Positions 44,753-48,992 of a stretch of 64,000 bases of DNA are shown in pieces. Positions within the stretch are counted from its first letter, which is position 1. The number at the start of each line of letters is the position of its first letter. This DNA is from Denitrovibrio acetiphilus DSM 12809. Lineage in GTDB: Bacteria; Chrysiogenota; Deferribacteres; Deferribacterales; Geovibrionaceae. Position numbers and translations under genes: made by a program. The stretch is from assembly GCF_000025725.1 (NCBI RefSeq), contig NC_013943.1:1-64000 (forward strand). The letters run 5' to 3'. The notes under the pieces are model-generated. The model was not told the DNA's origin, searched no databases, and worked only from the letters and a program-made list of their open reading frames with translations.

Positions 44753-44856
44753 CCGCTAAATCAAAAAAATATGACATATTTCTTTACACTTGAAATTAGA
44801 GACAAAAAGTAGCTTAATAGTACAAAATAGATTATTGATAATTGAGGTTAGCACTA

Positions 44857-46356
44857 ATGAAGATTTCATGTAGAAAAAAGACAGCACTTAATTCTAAAAA
44901 AGATGCGGTATTGATCCCTGTATATCGTAATATGCGCCCATTAAAGCCACTTACAGGCAAAAAGATAGAAGATGAGATAAATAATGTAATTTCTTCCGAC
45001 TATTTCTCTTATGAAGAGAAGGAGTTTACCGGTTTTTTTATGGAAATCGGTGGAAAACTGAGAAAAGTCTATCTTGTTACCGTACCGAAAGATCCCGCCG
45101 GATACAGATACTATACTGAGCTGGGCGGGGCATTTGCAAAACTGCTTAAGAGTGAGCGGATAACATCATTTTCTATCCTCTCCTTTGAGGATATCTATCT
45201 GGAAAAGAAAGACACTATGTTTACTAAGTCGTTTCTTGACGGTTTCTTTTTCGGACAGTACAGCTTTGACACATTCAAAAGCAAAGTCGAAAAGAGTTAT
45301 CAGTTTGAAGAGGCAGAGGTTATCACCGCTTTTACAAAGTTGAAGAGATTTGTTGATGAGAGCGCAGAGAAATGGAATGCAGTCTTTGACTCTATATATA
45401 TGGCAAAAGACCTTATCAACACTCCCCCTGCTGATATGACACCGGAGATTTTTGCTGAGAAGGCTCTCGAACTTGCAGGGGATAAGCTTAAAGTAAGCGT
45501 GGTTGACGATGTAGAAGTGCTTAAAAAAGACTATCCGCTGGTTTATGCTGTCGGTAAGGGGAGCACAAACCTTCCGAGATTTCTGAAACTGGAATATAAC
45601 GGTGCGCCCGCTACAACCCAGCATGTTGCACTGGTTGGGAAGGGAGTAACATTCGATTCCGGCGGCTCTAATCTGAAGCCTACGGGCTCTATTGAAGACA
45701 TGAAGACAGATATGTCCGGCGCTGCTACAGTTCTCGCTGTTACAAAGATTGCTGCTGATACTGACATGGCTATTAATATCAAAACATACATCCCGTTGGT
45801 GGAGAATATTATCGGCACCTGTGCATATAAACCGGGCGATATCCTTACAAGCAAGATGGGGAAAACCGTTGAAGTTCTGAATACCGACGCAGAAGGGCGC
45901 CTCATTCTGGCTGATGCTCTATATGAGTCTATACAGACAGACCCAGAGGTGATCATAGACGTTGCGACACTTACAGGTGCGTGTGTTGTGGCTCTGGGGT
46001 CACATTGTGCAGGGCTTTTCAGCAACAGGAAATTTCTCGCTAAGAATATATCTGATGTTTCCGGCGAAATCGGAGAAGATATATGGGAACTTCCTCTTCT
46101 GGAGGCATATCAGGAACGCATCAAAAGTGATGTGGCAGACCTGCGCAATATTGCAAAACCAGGTCGTGAGGCAGGTTCTACGATTGCCGGTCTCTTTCTT
46201 CAGGAGTTTGTGGACAACTGGCCGTGGATACACCTTGACATAGCAGGACCAGCATATCTGGATACTGAGCATCCTGTTTTCGGGAAGCACGCAACAGGAT
46301 TCGGAATCAGGCTGATAACAGAGTTTTTGCAGACTCACTACTCAGTAACAGAATAA
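44857..46356 (+). CDS. pepA: Leucyl aminopeptidase (M17)
   Basis: Cytosolic dizinc aminopeptidase, 499 aa. The C-terminal catalytic domain has VGKGVTFDSGG, KTDMSGAATVLA and the M17 signature NTDAEGRLILADAL. Metal-binding Lys, Asp and Glu residues all lie within these. The N-terminal domain is divergent. The start at 44857 follows TTGAGG; a TTG at 44842 is the alternative. Confidence 0.95.
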   Translation: MKISCRKKTALNSKKDAVLIPVYRNMRPLKPLTGKKIEDEINNVISSDYFSYEEKEFTGFFMEIGGKLRKVYLVTVPKDPAGYRYYTELGGAFAKLLKSERITSFSILSFEDIYLEKKDTMFTKSFLDGFFFGQYSFDTFKSKVEKSYQFEEAEVITAFTKLKRFVDESAEKWNAVFDSIYMAKDLINTPPADMTPEIFAEKALELAGDKLKVSVVDDVEVLKKDYPLVYAVGKGSTNLPRFLKLEYNGAPATTQHVALVGKGVTFDSGGSNLKPTGSIEDMKTDMSGAATVLAVTKIAADTDMAINIKTYIPLVENIIGTCAYKPGDILTSKMGKTVEVLNTDAEGRLILADALYESIQTDPEVIIDVATLTGACVVALGSHCAGLFSNRKFLAKNISDVSGEIGEDIWELPLLEAYQERIKSDVADLRNIAKPGREAGSTIAGLFLQEFVDNWPWIHLDIAGPAYLDTEHPVFGKHATGFGIRLITEFLQTHYSVTE

Positions 46357-46361
46357 ATAAT

Positions 46362-46387
46362 AAGGGGGCTTAGGTCCCCTTTTTTTA
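46362..46387 (+). terminator. Terminator of pepA
   Basis: AAGGGG (46362-46367) pairs with CCCCTT (46376-46381), then a T-tract. It ends just 4 bases before the next start codon. Confidence 0.85.
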
Positions 46388-46390
46388 GTT

Positions 46391-47983
46391 ATGAAGCAAA
46401 TACATATATTTATTATCTTTCTGGTTTTTGCATATCTATGTGCTGTTGGTGTGCGTTATCATCAGCATATAGAGCTTTCAGTATATTCAGAACCGATACT
46501 GACAACCCATGACGGTTATCGATGGCTTAGATATGCCGAAGATATAAGTTCCGGAGTTTATAAGTCAGGACTGGATGAATTGTCAGGTGTGCAGGTCAAA
46601 ACAGAGAAACCTCCGGTTGTCCCCCTGATAAGCAGGATCACGTCTTATATCAGTGAAACCTGTGATGTTTCCGGACAGACTGCGGGCAGTTTGATGGCTG
46701 TGCTTTTTTCGGGGCTTTTTATATTTCCTCTGGGCGTATTCTTTTATCTTGCGGGATTTCCTTCTGCGGGGGTGGGGGCTTCTCTGGTGGGGGCGCTTTC
46801 CTTTGCTTATCTTAGCAGGACGTCAGCTTATCAGTTAGATACCGACATGCTGAATCTGTTTTTCGTGTCTTGCGGGGCACTGTTTGTGTTTCTGGCTGGG
46901 CGAGGGCGGTCATATCTCTGGTCTGCAATGGCTGGGCTTTCCATGTATGTGTTCTGGCTATGGTATTTTCACAGCGGATTTTCTGTTGCTTACCTTCTCC
47001 TGCTTGCATATTCTTTGCGTTCAAAAAGTCTGAAAACCATTATGGTATCGCTATTGATCTATGTTGTCTGTGCTTCCCCATTTGTTGTTGCGGGAGGATT
47101 CAGGAATATATTTGAGTTTATAGGCTTTGGCTCCTCGACCATTCGCCCTGTTATGGCGGATGTTGCGGAACTTCAGGTGCTGCCGCTCATGGACACTTTT
47201 AAGAGTATTACGGCATATGGTGTGGCTGGCGTTGCAGGGCTTGCGTTATCACTCCTTGTCGGACGCCGTGCAGTCTTTCTTGCGTTGTTTTATCCGCTTG
47301 GTGTTTTAGCATTTATCAAAGGATTTAGGTTTGCGATGTACCTTGCCCCCCTATGTGGTGCAGGTCTGGGGATAGTTTTTGACTATAGGGTGAAAGGACA
47401 TTTACGTCCACTTGGGTGGGGCATTGTGACGGCTCTTTCCCTGCTGGTGTTTGTGCGTCCTTACATAGGAGAAATACCGCCGGTGGTTGTGAATCCTGTA
47501 ACTTACGACAGTATAAGGGAACTGAAAGGTTTAGAGGATGATGCCGTAATAGGGACTGTCTGGGACAACGGCTTTCTGGTGGAATATCTCACAGGGAAAG
47601 CAGTCTTTGCTGACGGGGCGTCACAGTTTCGTGAAGAGGCAAAGACATACGGCAGAGCGATGCTTCAGTCTGATCCTTTGAAAGCTGCTTCTATGCTGGC
47701 TGATGCTTCAGGAGGTCGTCCAGTGTATCTCCTTTTTACTCCTGATATGGACAGGAAGGTTGGCTCGCTGATAACCAGCGCAGGATATTCGATGGATGTT
47801 TTAGGAGATGACGTTTTTGTGGCTCCTATAGATAAGAATGAAGGCTATTCTGTTGTCCAAATATCGGAAACGCTGCTTTTTGAGATGCATGTTATAGGTG
47901 ATAATGATATCACATGTTTTGACAGGGTTCCCCTTTACAGTAAGGGTTCTGTGGTCTACAGGCTTTCGGATGAATGCAGATAG
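46391..47983 (+). CDS. pglB: STT3/PglB-type oligosaccharyltransferase
   Basis: 530 aa integral membrane protein with an N-terminal region of about 12 helices and a periplasmic C-terminal domain. Motifs line up with STT3/PglB: D41 in THDGYRWLRYAED (first acidic motif), D150-T-D152 in YQLDTDMLNL, PVMADVAELQ with E260 (the SVSE/TIxE position), R313 in KGFRFAMYLAP, and VWDNG (390-394) followed by ADG in place of WWDYG...DGG. That is the order in Campylobacter PglB, but the C-terminal domain is shorter (713 aa there). It would transfer lipid-linked glycan to Asn sequons in the periplasm. No glycan-synthesis genes are adjacent. I saw no strong ribosome site. Confidence 0.8.
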   Translation: MKQIHIFIIFLVFAYLCAVGVRYHQHIELSVYSEPILTTHDGYRWLRYAEDISSGVYKSGLDELSGVQVKTEKPPVVPLISRITSYISETCDVSGQTAGSLMAVLFSGLFIFPLGVFFYLAGFPSAGVGASLVGALSFAYLSRTSAYQLDTDMLNLFFVSCGALFVFLAGRGRSYLWSAMAGLSMYVFWLWYFHSGFSVAYLLLLAYSLRSKSLKTIMVSLLIYVVCASPFVVAGGFRNIFEFIGFGSSTIRPVMADVAELQVLPLMDTFKSITAYGVAGVAGLALSLLVGRRAVFLALFYPLGVLAFIKGFRFAMYLAPLCGAGLGIVFDYRVKGHLRPLGWGIVTALSLLVFVRPYIGEIPPVVVNPVTYDSIRELKGLEDDAVIGTVWDNGFLVEYLTGKAVFADGASQFREEAKTYGRAMLQSDPLKAASMLADASGGRPVYLLFTPDMDRKVGSLITSAGYSMDVLGDDVFVAPIDKNEGYSVVQISETLLFEMHVIGDNDITCFDRVPLYSKGSVVYRLSDECR

Positions 47984-48101
47984 TGTACTTATGCTTTAAG
48001 AATGTTTACATAGTGATTTTTATATATTGATTTTTCCTATCTTTATGTTATTGTTGAATATTCGTTTTGCTATCAGTATTTGTAATAACACGGAGAGTGC
48101 T

Positions 48102-48992
48102 ATGGATTTTAAACAGATCGAAGCTTTTGTATTTGTTGCAAAGTACAAATCCTTTTCAAGAGCCGCAGAGAAGCTTCTGCTTTCCCAGCCAACTATCTCT
48201 ACTCATATCAGTACACTTGAAGAACAGCTCGGAGTAAAGCTTTTCGACAGATTGTCGAAGGAAGTTGTTCTCACAGAAGCGGGGCAGGTCTTTTATCCAT
48301 ACGCAGTTGATATTCTTGATCTGAGAGAGCGTTCTCATGAAGCTGTGAAAGAGTTCCTTAACGAAGTCAGCGGACACCTCCATATAGGTTACAGCACTGT
48401 TGCGGCAGAGTTTATCCTTCCTGAAGTTATAAAAAAGTTTAAAGAAGATTACTATAAAACATTTTTTACTCTTGATAACGGTAATACTCAAAATGTCATT
48501 CAACGACTTTCTGACGGTATACTCGATCTTGCTATTGTTGCCAGGAAGATACCTAAGAAAGATTTGGAATACAAAGTGCTTACAAAAGACAAGATCGTTC
48601 TTATCGTGCATAAAAACCATAAATTTTTCACCCGTGACTCTGTGTTTATCGAAGAGATCCTCGGTGAAGAATTTATCACCCGTGAGGTCGGCTCGGGTAC
48701 GAGAGCTTCTGTCGAGCACGCCTTTAAAAACAAAGGTTATGATTTCGACAGCCTGAACGCAGTTGCTGTGCTAAGTTCAACTTTCTCTATACGCAACGCT
48801 GTTAAGCGTGAGCTCGGTATTGCTTTTATGTCTGAGATGGCGCTCGCTGAAGACGATCACGATACCAGCGTAAAGGCTATCCCGGTAACAGATCTGATGG
48901 TTGAGAAGGATGTCTATGTCGTTTACAGTAAAAACAGAACAAATAAAAAACTTCTCAAACATTTTATCGAAACAATTCTGAAGTTTAAGTGA
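48102..48992 (+). CDS. LysR regulator, probably selenium-linked
   Basis: 296 aa. N-terminal winged HTH (1-62: MDFKQIEAFVFVAKYKSFSR, AAEKLLLSQPTISTHISTLE) and a LysR substrate domain of the CysB/CysL type. Its stop overlaps the mnmH start (GTGA), so the two form an operon. LysR regulators linked to selenium metabolism are known beside selenium genes; that assignment is from context. The start follows GGAGAG; the frame is open to 48027. Confidence 0.85.
   Translation: MDFKQIEAFVFVAKYKSFSRAAEKLLLSQPTISTHISTLEEQLGVKLFDRLSKEVVLTEAGQVFYPYAVDILDLRERSHEAVKEFLNEVSGHLHIGYSTVAAEFILPEVIKKFKEDYYKTFFTLDNGNTQNVIQRLSDGILDLAIVARKIPKKDLEYKVLTKDKIVLIVHKNHKFFTRDSVFIEEILGEEFITREVGSGTRASVEHAFKNKGYDFDSLNAVAVLSSTFSIRNAVKRELGIAFMSEMALAEDDHDTSVKAIPVTDLMVEKDVYVVYSKNRTNKKLLKHFIETILKFK

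Follow-up and report, generated by a model that had tools for sequence, protein, structure and literature searches.

Single-subunit oligosaccharyltransferases (OSTs), represented by PglB of Campylobacter lari and C. jejuni, are the closest described counterparts of the enzyme analyzed here. In PglB, the metal is held by D56, R147, D154, D156 and E319, of which D56 and E319 also contact the acceptor amide (PMC7226087), and the pyrophosphate is bound by R375 and Y196 (PMC6215017). The WWD part of the WWDYG motif reads the hydroxyl group of Ser or Thr at position +2 (PMC7226087), and simulations of C. lari PglB identified W463, D465, I572 and T316 as the residues latching a +2 Thr (PMC8479172). 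In C. jejuni PglB, replacement of the first-Trp equivalent (W457S) or of the Tyr equivalent (Y460N) abolished activity, although both variants were strongly expressed (PMC3527161). The shortest OSTs known according to a 2013 description are AglB-S1 and AglB-S2 of Archaeoglobus fulgidus with 591–593 aa (PMC3703281), which were described with a conserved WWDYG and a DK-type motif.

Here, we analyzed an open reading frame (ORF) for a 530-aa protein in the window, i.e. the whole stretch of 64,000 nucleotides under study, from Denitrovibrio acetiphilus, whose genome consists of one contig (3,222,077 bp). The protein has the GT-C fold, the D...R...DTD...E...R constellation and a WD-G loop followed by a DG loop in common with PglB. 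It differs from PglB in its length (PglB 713 aa), in having VWDNG, DVAE instead of TIxE and MxxK instead of MxxI, in a shorter EL5, in the absence of two C-terminal blocks and in its location outside a pgl cluster. The C-terminal domain is reduced as in the A. fulgidus AglB-S proteins, but the D. acetiphilus protein is shorter than these and has lost the first Trp. Long OSTs of the Deferribacterota (e.g. L046, L047, L049, L050; 669–671 aa) share with this short form the slot next to pepA, a sister-clade position, the catalytic residues and MxxK; unlike the short form, they have WWDYG, T-I-x-E, a full EL5 and, in an AF2 model, a beta-rich C-terminal subdomain. A published description of the short clade was not found in open-licence papers. 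The features of the locus are listed in Table 1.

Table 1. Features of the short-form locus in the window (positions of the whole stretch; residue equivalents refer to C. lari PglB).
Feature	Position	Strand	Basis or conservation
pepA (leucyl aminopeptidase), upstream OST neighbour conserved in several families of the order	44842..46356	+	
Intrinsic-terminator-like hairpin and T-run between pepA and the OST ATG	46362..46386	+	
Short-form STT3/PglB-like glycosyltransferase	46391..47983 (including stop)	+	ORF, AF2 model, Foldseek
D41 = PglB D56, metal and acceptor amide	46511..46513	+	Invariant in 54 relatives; 8/8 short forms
R143 and D150-T-D152 = PglB R147 and D154-x-D156, metal site	46817..46846	+	Invariant
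Y192 = PglB Y196, pyrophosphate contact	46964..46966	+	8/8 short, 74/82 long; role from PMC6215017
D-V-A-E (EL5) replacing T-I-x-E; E260 = PglB E319 kept, Thr lost	47159..47170	+	Residue comparison
R313 = PglB R375, pyrophosphate binding	47327..47329	+	Invariant; 8/8 short, 82/82 long
V-W-D-N-G in place of W-W-D-Y-G	47558..47572	+	First Trp 0/8 in short clade, 81/82 long
D-M-D-R-K (residues 452–456), MI/DK equivalent, of the MxxK type that prevails in the phylum	47744..47758	+	Alignment

Family, fold and descent of the short form

The ORF is intact and begins with ATG. As a single sequence, its product scored below the cut-off of the Pfam STT3 model (13.3 bits; cut-off 24.5), matched NCBIfam PglB weakly (E 3.3e-5; 22.6 bits at a cut-off of 1300) and gave noise only in a PDB search. 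Nevertheless, kinship to STT3/AglB/PglB members became evident with a family profile of 54 relatives, which matched C. lari PglB (5ogl, 6gxc, 3rce) over the full length with an E-value of about 1e-104; its matches to human STT3A/B and yeast Stt3 were weaker. In a phylum-wide search with Pfam STT3, the short form was missed in G000, G019, G024, G025 and G026, remained below the cut-off in G028 and was matched in G027.

The AF2 model of the 530-aa protein (mean pLDDT 92.8, pTM 0.91) shows a GT-C/STT3 membrane fold with a periplasmic C-terminal domain. The best PDB match of this model in Foldseek was PglB (6gxc/5ogl; E 8e-17, TM 0.73–0.74 relative to the query), with yeast, human and archaeal OSTs ranking next; the top 19 PDB matches were all OST catalytic subunits, and other GT-C enzymes (DPY19, AftA, ArnT) matched more weakly than OSTs. 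The C-terminal domain of A. fulgidus AglB-S2 appeared as a weak match at rank 31. A control model of a long relative matched PglB with a TM of 0.81.

Residue equivalents were assigned by alignment to C. lari PglB, and 8 short sequences were compared with 82 long ones. D41, R143, D150, D152, E260, R313, W391 and G394 are invariant across the 54 aligned relatives. The two acidic motifs and all metal ligands (equivalents of D56, R147, D154, D156 and E319) are present in the 530-aa protein, as are Y192 and R313 for pyrophosphate binding. All eight short forms keep the equivalents of D56, R147, D154, D156, Y196, E319, R375, W464 and G467, and seven of them that of D465. Because predicted fold and catalytic residues fit, we assign the product to the STT3/PglB family of membrane enzymes. 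An earlier note, made from the sequence of the window, had reported the STT3/PglB landmarks in order, which the alignments bear out, and had named absence of the STT3 fold as a refutation, whereas the model has this fold.

Homologues are present in 47 of 51 Deferribacterota genomes, and a search of viral contigs returned no relatives. The short form, with ORFs of 520–582 aa, occurs in all eight genomes of one clade formed by Denitrovibrio (g1; G000, G018, G019) and Seleniivibrio (g4; G024–G028), and at the thresholds used it was the only form found in G000, G019 and G024–G028. Denitrovibrio sp. BM701 (G018) has a second, full-length OST of 664 aa with WWDDG (L031:5876-7867, minus strand), which adjoins a family-2 glycosyltransferase gene (L031:5069-5857). 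In the genera g2 and g3 (G020–G023) of the same family (f1, Geovibrionaceae according to the NCBI lineage of D. acetiphilus), the gene slot of the short form is occupied by a WWDYG form of 669–671 aa. The gene order pepA – OST – LysR – (SelU) – RlpA – RPH – RdgB – PBP1A is shared by g1 and g4 with the short form and by g2 and g3 with the long form, and pepA is also adjacent to long OST genes in families f6 and f7.

In a careful tree of 39 rows, the short clade was recovered with 100/100 support and was sister to the syntenic long forms with 85/76, which is not strong. A looser, quick tree of 101 rows placed the short clade on a long stem apart from the syntenic long forms, most likely due to long-branch attraction. 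The short form is the positional orthologue of the ordinary long WWDYG enzyme of the phylum; in view of the modest sister support and the deviating 101-row tree, the support for this orthology comes chiefly from synteny. Synteny and the 39-row tree also led us to reject the alternative that a foreign OST was acquired horizontally.

Remodelling of the acceptor side

V390-W391-D392-N393-G394 correspond to PglB W463-W464-D465-Y466-G467, F395 to Y468 and K456 to I572. The altered motif reported in the earlier note was thereby confirmed at residues 390–394, and the weight of its two changes differs. The first Trp is replaced in all eight short forms, by five different residues (Q in three, L in two, V, G and H once each), and is kept in 81 of 82 long forms. 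In contrast, the fourth motif position varies widely among the long relatives (Y42, F18, L6, E4, N3, others) and WWDNG occurs in Magnetobacterium-type sequences, so that the Tyr-to-Asn change is less telling, Asn is not diagnostic and this change was rejected as the key one. The same note took the motif as recognizing the acceptor Asn, which does not agree with PglB, where the WWD part reads the +2 hydroxyl group and not the Asn (PMC7226087). At position 468, F is found in all eight short forms; L, H, F or W also occur in some long forms.

Further changes accompany the loss of the first Trp. The Thr of TIxE is lost in all eight short forms (D3, E2, S, Q, A), compared to T in 46 and S in 20 of the 82 long forms, and EL5 lacks about 10 residues relative to the syntenic long forms. 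At the MI/DK position, the 530-aa protein and most long relatives have an M-x-x-K hybrid; the Seleniivibrio sequences are altered (EVPFK, or Ser replacing Lys), and the K456 equivalent is kept in six of eight short forms. The short C-terminal domain claimed earlier is found as well: W391 and D452 are 61 aa apart, compared to 84–95 aa in most long relatives, and 79 aa instead of about 140 aa follow from D452 to the end, leaving the periplasmic domain about 90 residues short. Across the short clade, these distances are 58–61 and 67–115 aa, compared to mostly 84–95 (few others 63 to 139) and mostly 133–160 aa in long forms. Two blocks of the C-terminal domain are lost in all eight short forms; in a long form modelled with AF2, the missing parts consist of helices and the beta-rich subdomain.

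Altered motifs also occur elsewhere. G023 has a second long OST with WWGNG, in which the Asp of WWD is lost, on a very long branch (L032:7989-10001, minus strand). OSTs of Persephonella/Aquificota (L069, L072, L086) have WWSEG without the Asp of WWD and represent another lineage with an altered motif. FWEYG is found in a sequence labelled Deltaproteobacteria (L105:4089-6143), the sole long relative in the set lacking the first Trp.

We regard it as moderately probable that the short form is an active STT3/PglB-family glycosyltransferase for a lipid-linked glycan, and that its acceptor site is remodelled and works without the usual +2 Ser/Thr pocket. Such an enzyme would have descended vertically from the ordinary PglB-type OST of the phylum, would most likely bind both a divalent metal and an undecaprenyl-pyrophosphate (Und-PP)-linked glycan in the manner of PglB, and would move the glycan on the periplasmic side to an acceptor that is probably a protein or peptide. 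Loss of the first Trp of WWD and of the TIxE Thr, shortening of EL5 and trimming of the periplasmic domain would have rebuilt its acceptor site, so that the standard +2 pocket should not select acceptors.

An ordinary N-X-S/T OST, whose pocket would still function despite the missing first Trp and the smaller C-terminal domain owing to compensating changes, appears unlikely by comparison. The equivalents of W464 and of D465, which forms the strongest contact to +2 in simulations, remain (W391 in 8/8, D392 in 7/8), and the protein could therefore still read a sequon; the retention of K456 in most short forms and the variability of motif position 4 point in the same direction. Moreover, diverse bacterial OSTs vary in their site preference around N-X-S/T (PMC4894442), and Deferribacter desulfuricans of the same phylum is cited with a characterised PglB (PMC6025236). 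These points are opposed by the clade-wide loss of the first Trp with its five different replacements, by the lost Thr and shortened EL5 and by the inactivity of the C. jejuni variants. Since neither a complete WWD(YG) motif (VWDNG) nor TIxE (DVAE) is present, the 530-aa protein is not called a canonical N-OST. N-glycosylation by this protein is plausible, but the N-linked glycosylation that the earlier note took to be implied does not follow, as the changed features are those that read the sequon and the W457S and Y460N variants of C. jejuni PglB had no activity (PMC3527161).

Gene neighbourhood and donor pathway

The gene downstream of the OST gene encodes a LysR regulator (48027-48992) that exceeds the cut-off of the NCBIfam model for selenium-metabolism-associated LysR proteins. 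This regulator gene adjoins a SelU-like gene, and the regulator is 84–96% conserved across the family. The SelU-like gene and two further neighbours, RlpA and RPH, were assigned by sequence. The claim that no pgl cluster is adjacent thus holds.

The hairpin with T-run at the pepA–OST junction ends 4 bases 5′ of the OST ATG, before which no Shine-Dalgarno sequence was seen in the window. A similar element is located just upstream of the ORF in L039, L040 and L045 and overlaps its 5′ end in L041–L044; the sequences of these hairpins differ between the short-form loci, and their position is similar. The hairpins in L040 and L044 escaped the simple detector used and were found by eye; among the long relatives scanned, L049 alone matched, further into the gene. 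The true starts of the Seleniivibrio ORFs in L041–L044 may be GTG or ATG codons inside the hairpin, in which case their N-termini would align with that of the window protein. The hairpin suggests expression of the OST gene by read-through from pepA or attenuation.

Genes for the donor pathway were searched family by family in the D. acetiphilus genome. A WecA/MraY-type phosphoglycosyltransferase (PGT) is encoded by a 710-aa ORF at 2951717 (L146:9718-11847), the C-terminal half of which has no Pfam match. The genome has 16 GT1 matches, including a cluster at 2.85–2.86 Mb with Wzm/Wzt-type transporter genes, and seven ABC exporters, two of them MsbA-like. A PglC-type PGT (PF02397) and a Wzx flippase (PF01943) were not found at the thresholds used, neither of the two MsbA-like transporters scanned reached the cut-off of the PglK equivalog, and a Campylobacter-type pgl cluster (PglC, PglK, glycosyltransferases) is not present. 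The missing PF02397 is not diagnostic and was rejected as a mark of lost function, because the long-form genomes G010, G011 and G013 lack it as well. In Calditerrivibrio-type genomes (G006, G008, G009) and in G015, the OST gene lies beside one for a short PGT (about 205 aa). The Calditerrivibrio-type loci L033, L037 and L038 have tandem OST pairs beside a PglC-type PGT.

From its gene content, the genome likely supplies some Und-PP-linked glycan. The earlier suggestion that the donor is made elsewhere in the genome is therefore plausible in view of the WecA-like PGT, the GT1 proteins and Wzm/Wzt, and incomplete with respect to PglC, PF01943 Wzx and a PglK equivalog. Absence of a lipid-linked glycan pathway, which had been named as a refutation, is only partly excluded by these genes.

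Two further readings share the intact donor side. With the same donor, the enzyme could serve another kind of acceptor, such as a non-Asn residue, a lipid or a polysaccharide, and no longer be an N-OST. The intact donor and metal site next to a remodelled acceptor side would fit, and the GT-C relatives DPY19, ArnT and AftA do match the model, though more weakly than OSTs; this is improbable in that D41 and E260, whose PglB equivalents contact the Asn amide (PMC7226087), are kept in all eight short forms and a separate gene encodes a candidate ligase of the WaaL/Wzy_C type. We consider it highly improbable that the protein is mainly a hydrolase or recycling enzyme for lipid-linked oligosaccharides which frees the glycan after losing efficient acceptor binding. 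PglB and yeast OST were reported to free oligosaccharides without acceptor, but in the same report loss of lipid-linked substrate with PglB was not detected (PMC6215017), and the conservation of D41/E260 and W391/D392 suggests that an acceptor is still bound.

Selection and implications for the family

Selection was analyzed by dN/dS according to Nei-Gojobori. For the short forms of Seleniivibrio, values of 0.070 (G025-G028), 0.103 (G026-G028), 0.118 (G025-G026) and 0.198 (G027-G028) were obtained; these genes are under purifying selection (dN/dS 0.07–0.2). Close long-form pairs showed 0.070–0.082, the value of 0.07 for G020-G022 being equal to that of the short pair G025-G028. The values for Denitrovibrio pairs (0.19–0.22 where computable) and for G024-G028 are unreliable because synonymous sites are near saturation. 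In Denitrovibrio, OST identity is 47–50% compared to 83–84% for pepA. Relative to the neighbour PBP1A, dN was 1.4–2.2 in the short clade and 0.8–1.2 in the long g2/g3 pairs; therefore, the gene evolves faster in the short clade, though it is constrained. In close Seleniivibrio pairs, conservation of the C-terminal domain equals that of the membrane domain.

A pseudogene was rejected based on the intact ORF, the conserved catalytic residues and dN/dS, and an OST decaying towards loss, for which fast evolution in Denitrovibrio, the lost domain blocks and the terminator-like hairpin at the start codon could be cited, is highly improbable given ORFs intact in all eight genomes of two genera, complete catalytic residues, the low dN/dS of the closest Seleniivibrio pair with its evenly conserved C-terminal domain and the high-confidence predicted fold.

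For the preferred reading of an active glycosyltransferase with a remodelled acceptor site, a more specific version can be put forward tentatively: a clade of two genera without the WWD/TIxE latch may keep OST catalysis and glycosylate proteins by a different acceptor rule, either with no need for Ser/Thr at +2 or with a new motif, on an unusually small scaffold.

According to the literature, WWD is highly conserved among OSTs; it accounts for the requirement of N-glycosylation for Ser or Thr at +2. The clade-wide, selected loss of the first Trp and the EL5 Thr with an intact catalytic core is a natural experiment on this point. Comparison of the long orthologues with the short ones at the same locus would allow testing which regions of the protein determine acceptor choice, and might provide a compact transferase that follows another acceptor rule and could be used for glycan attachment in the laboratory.
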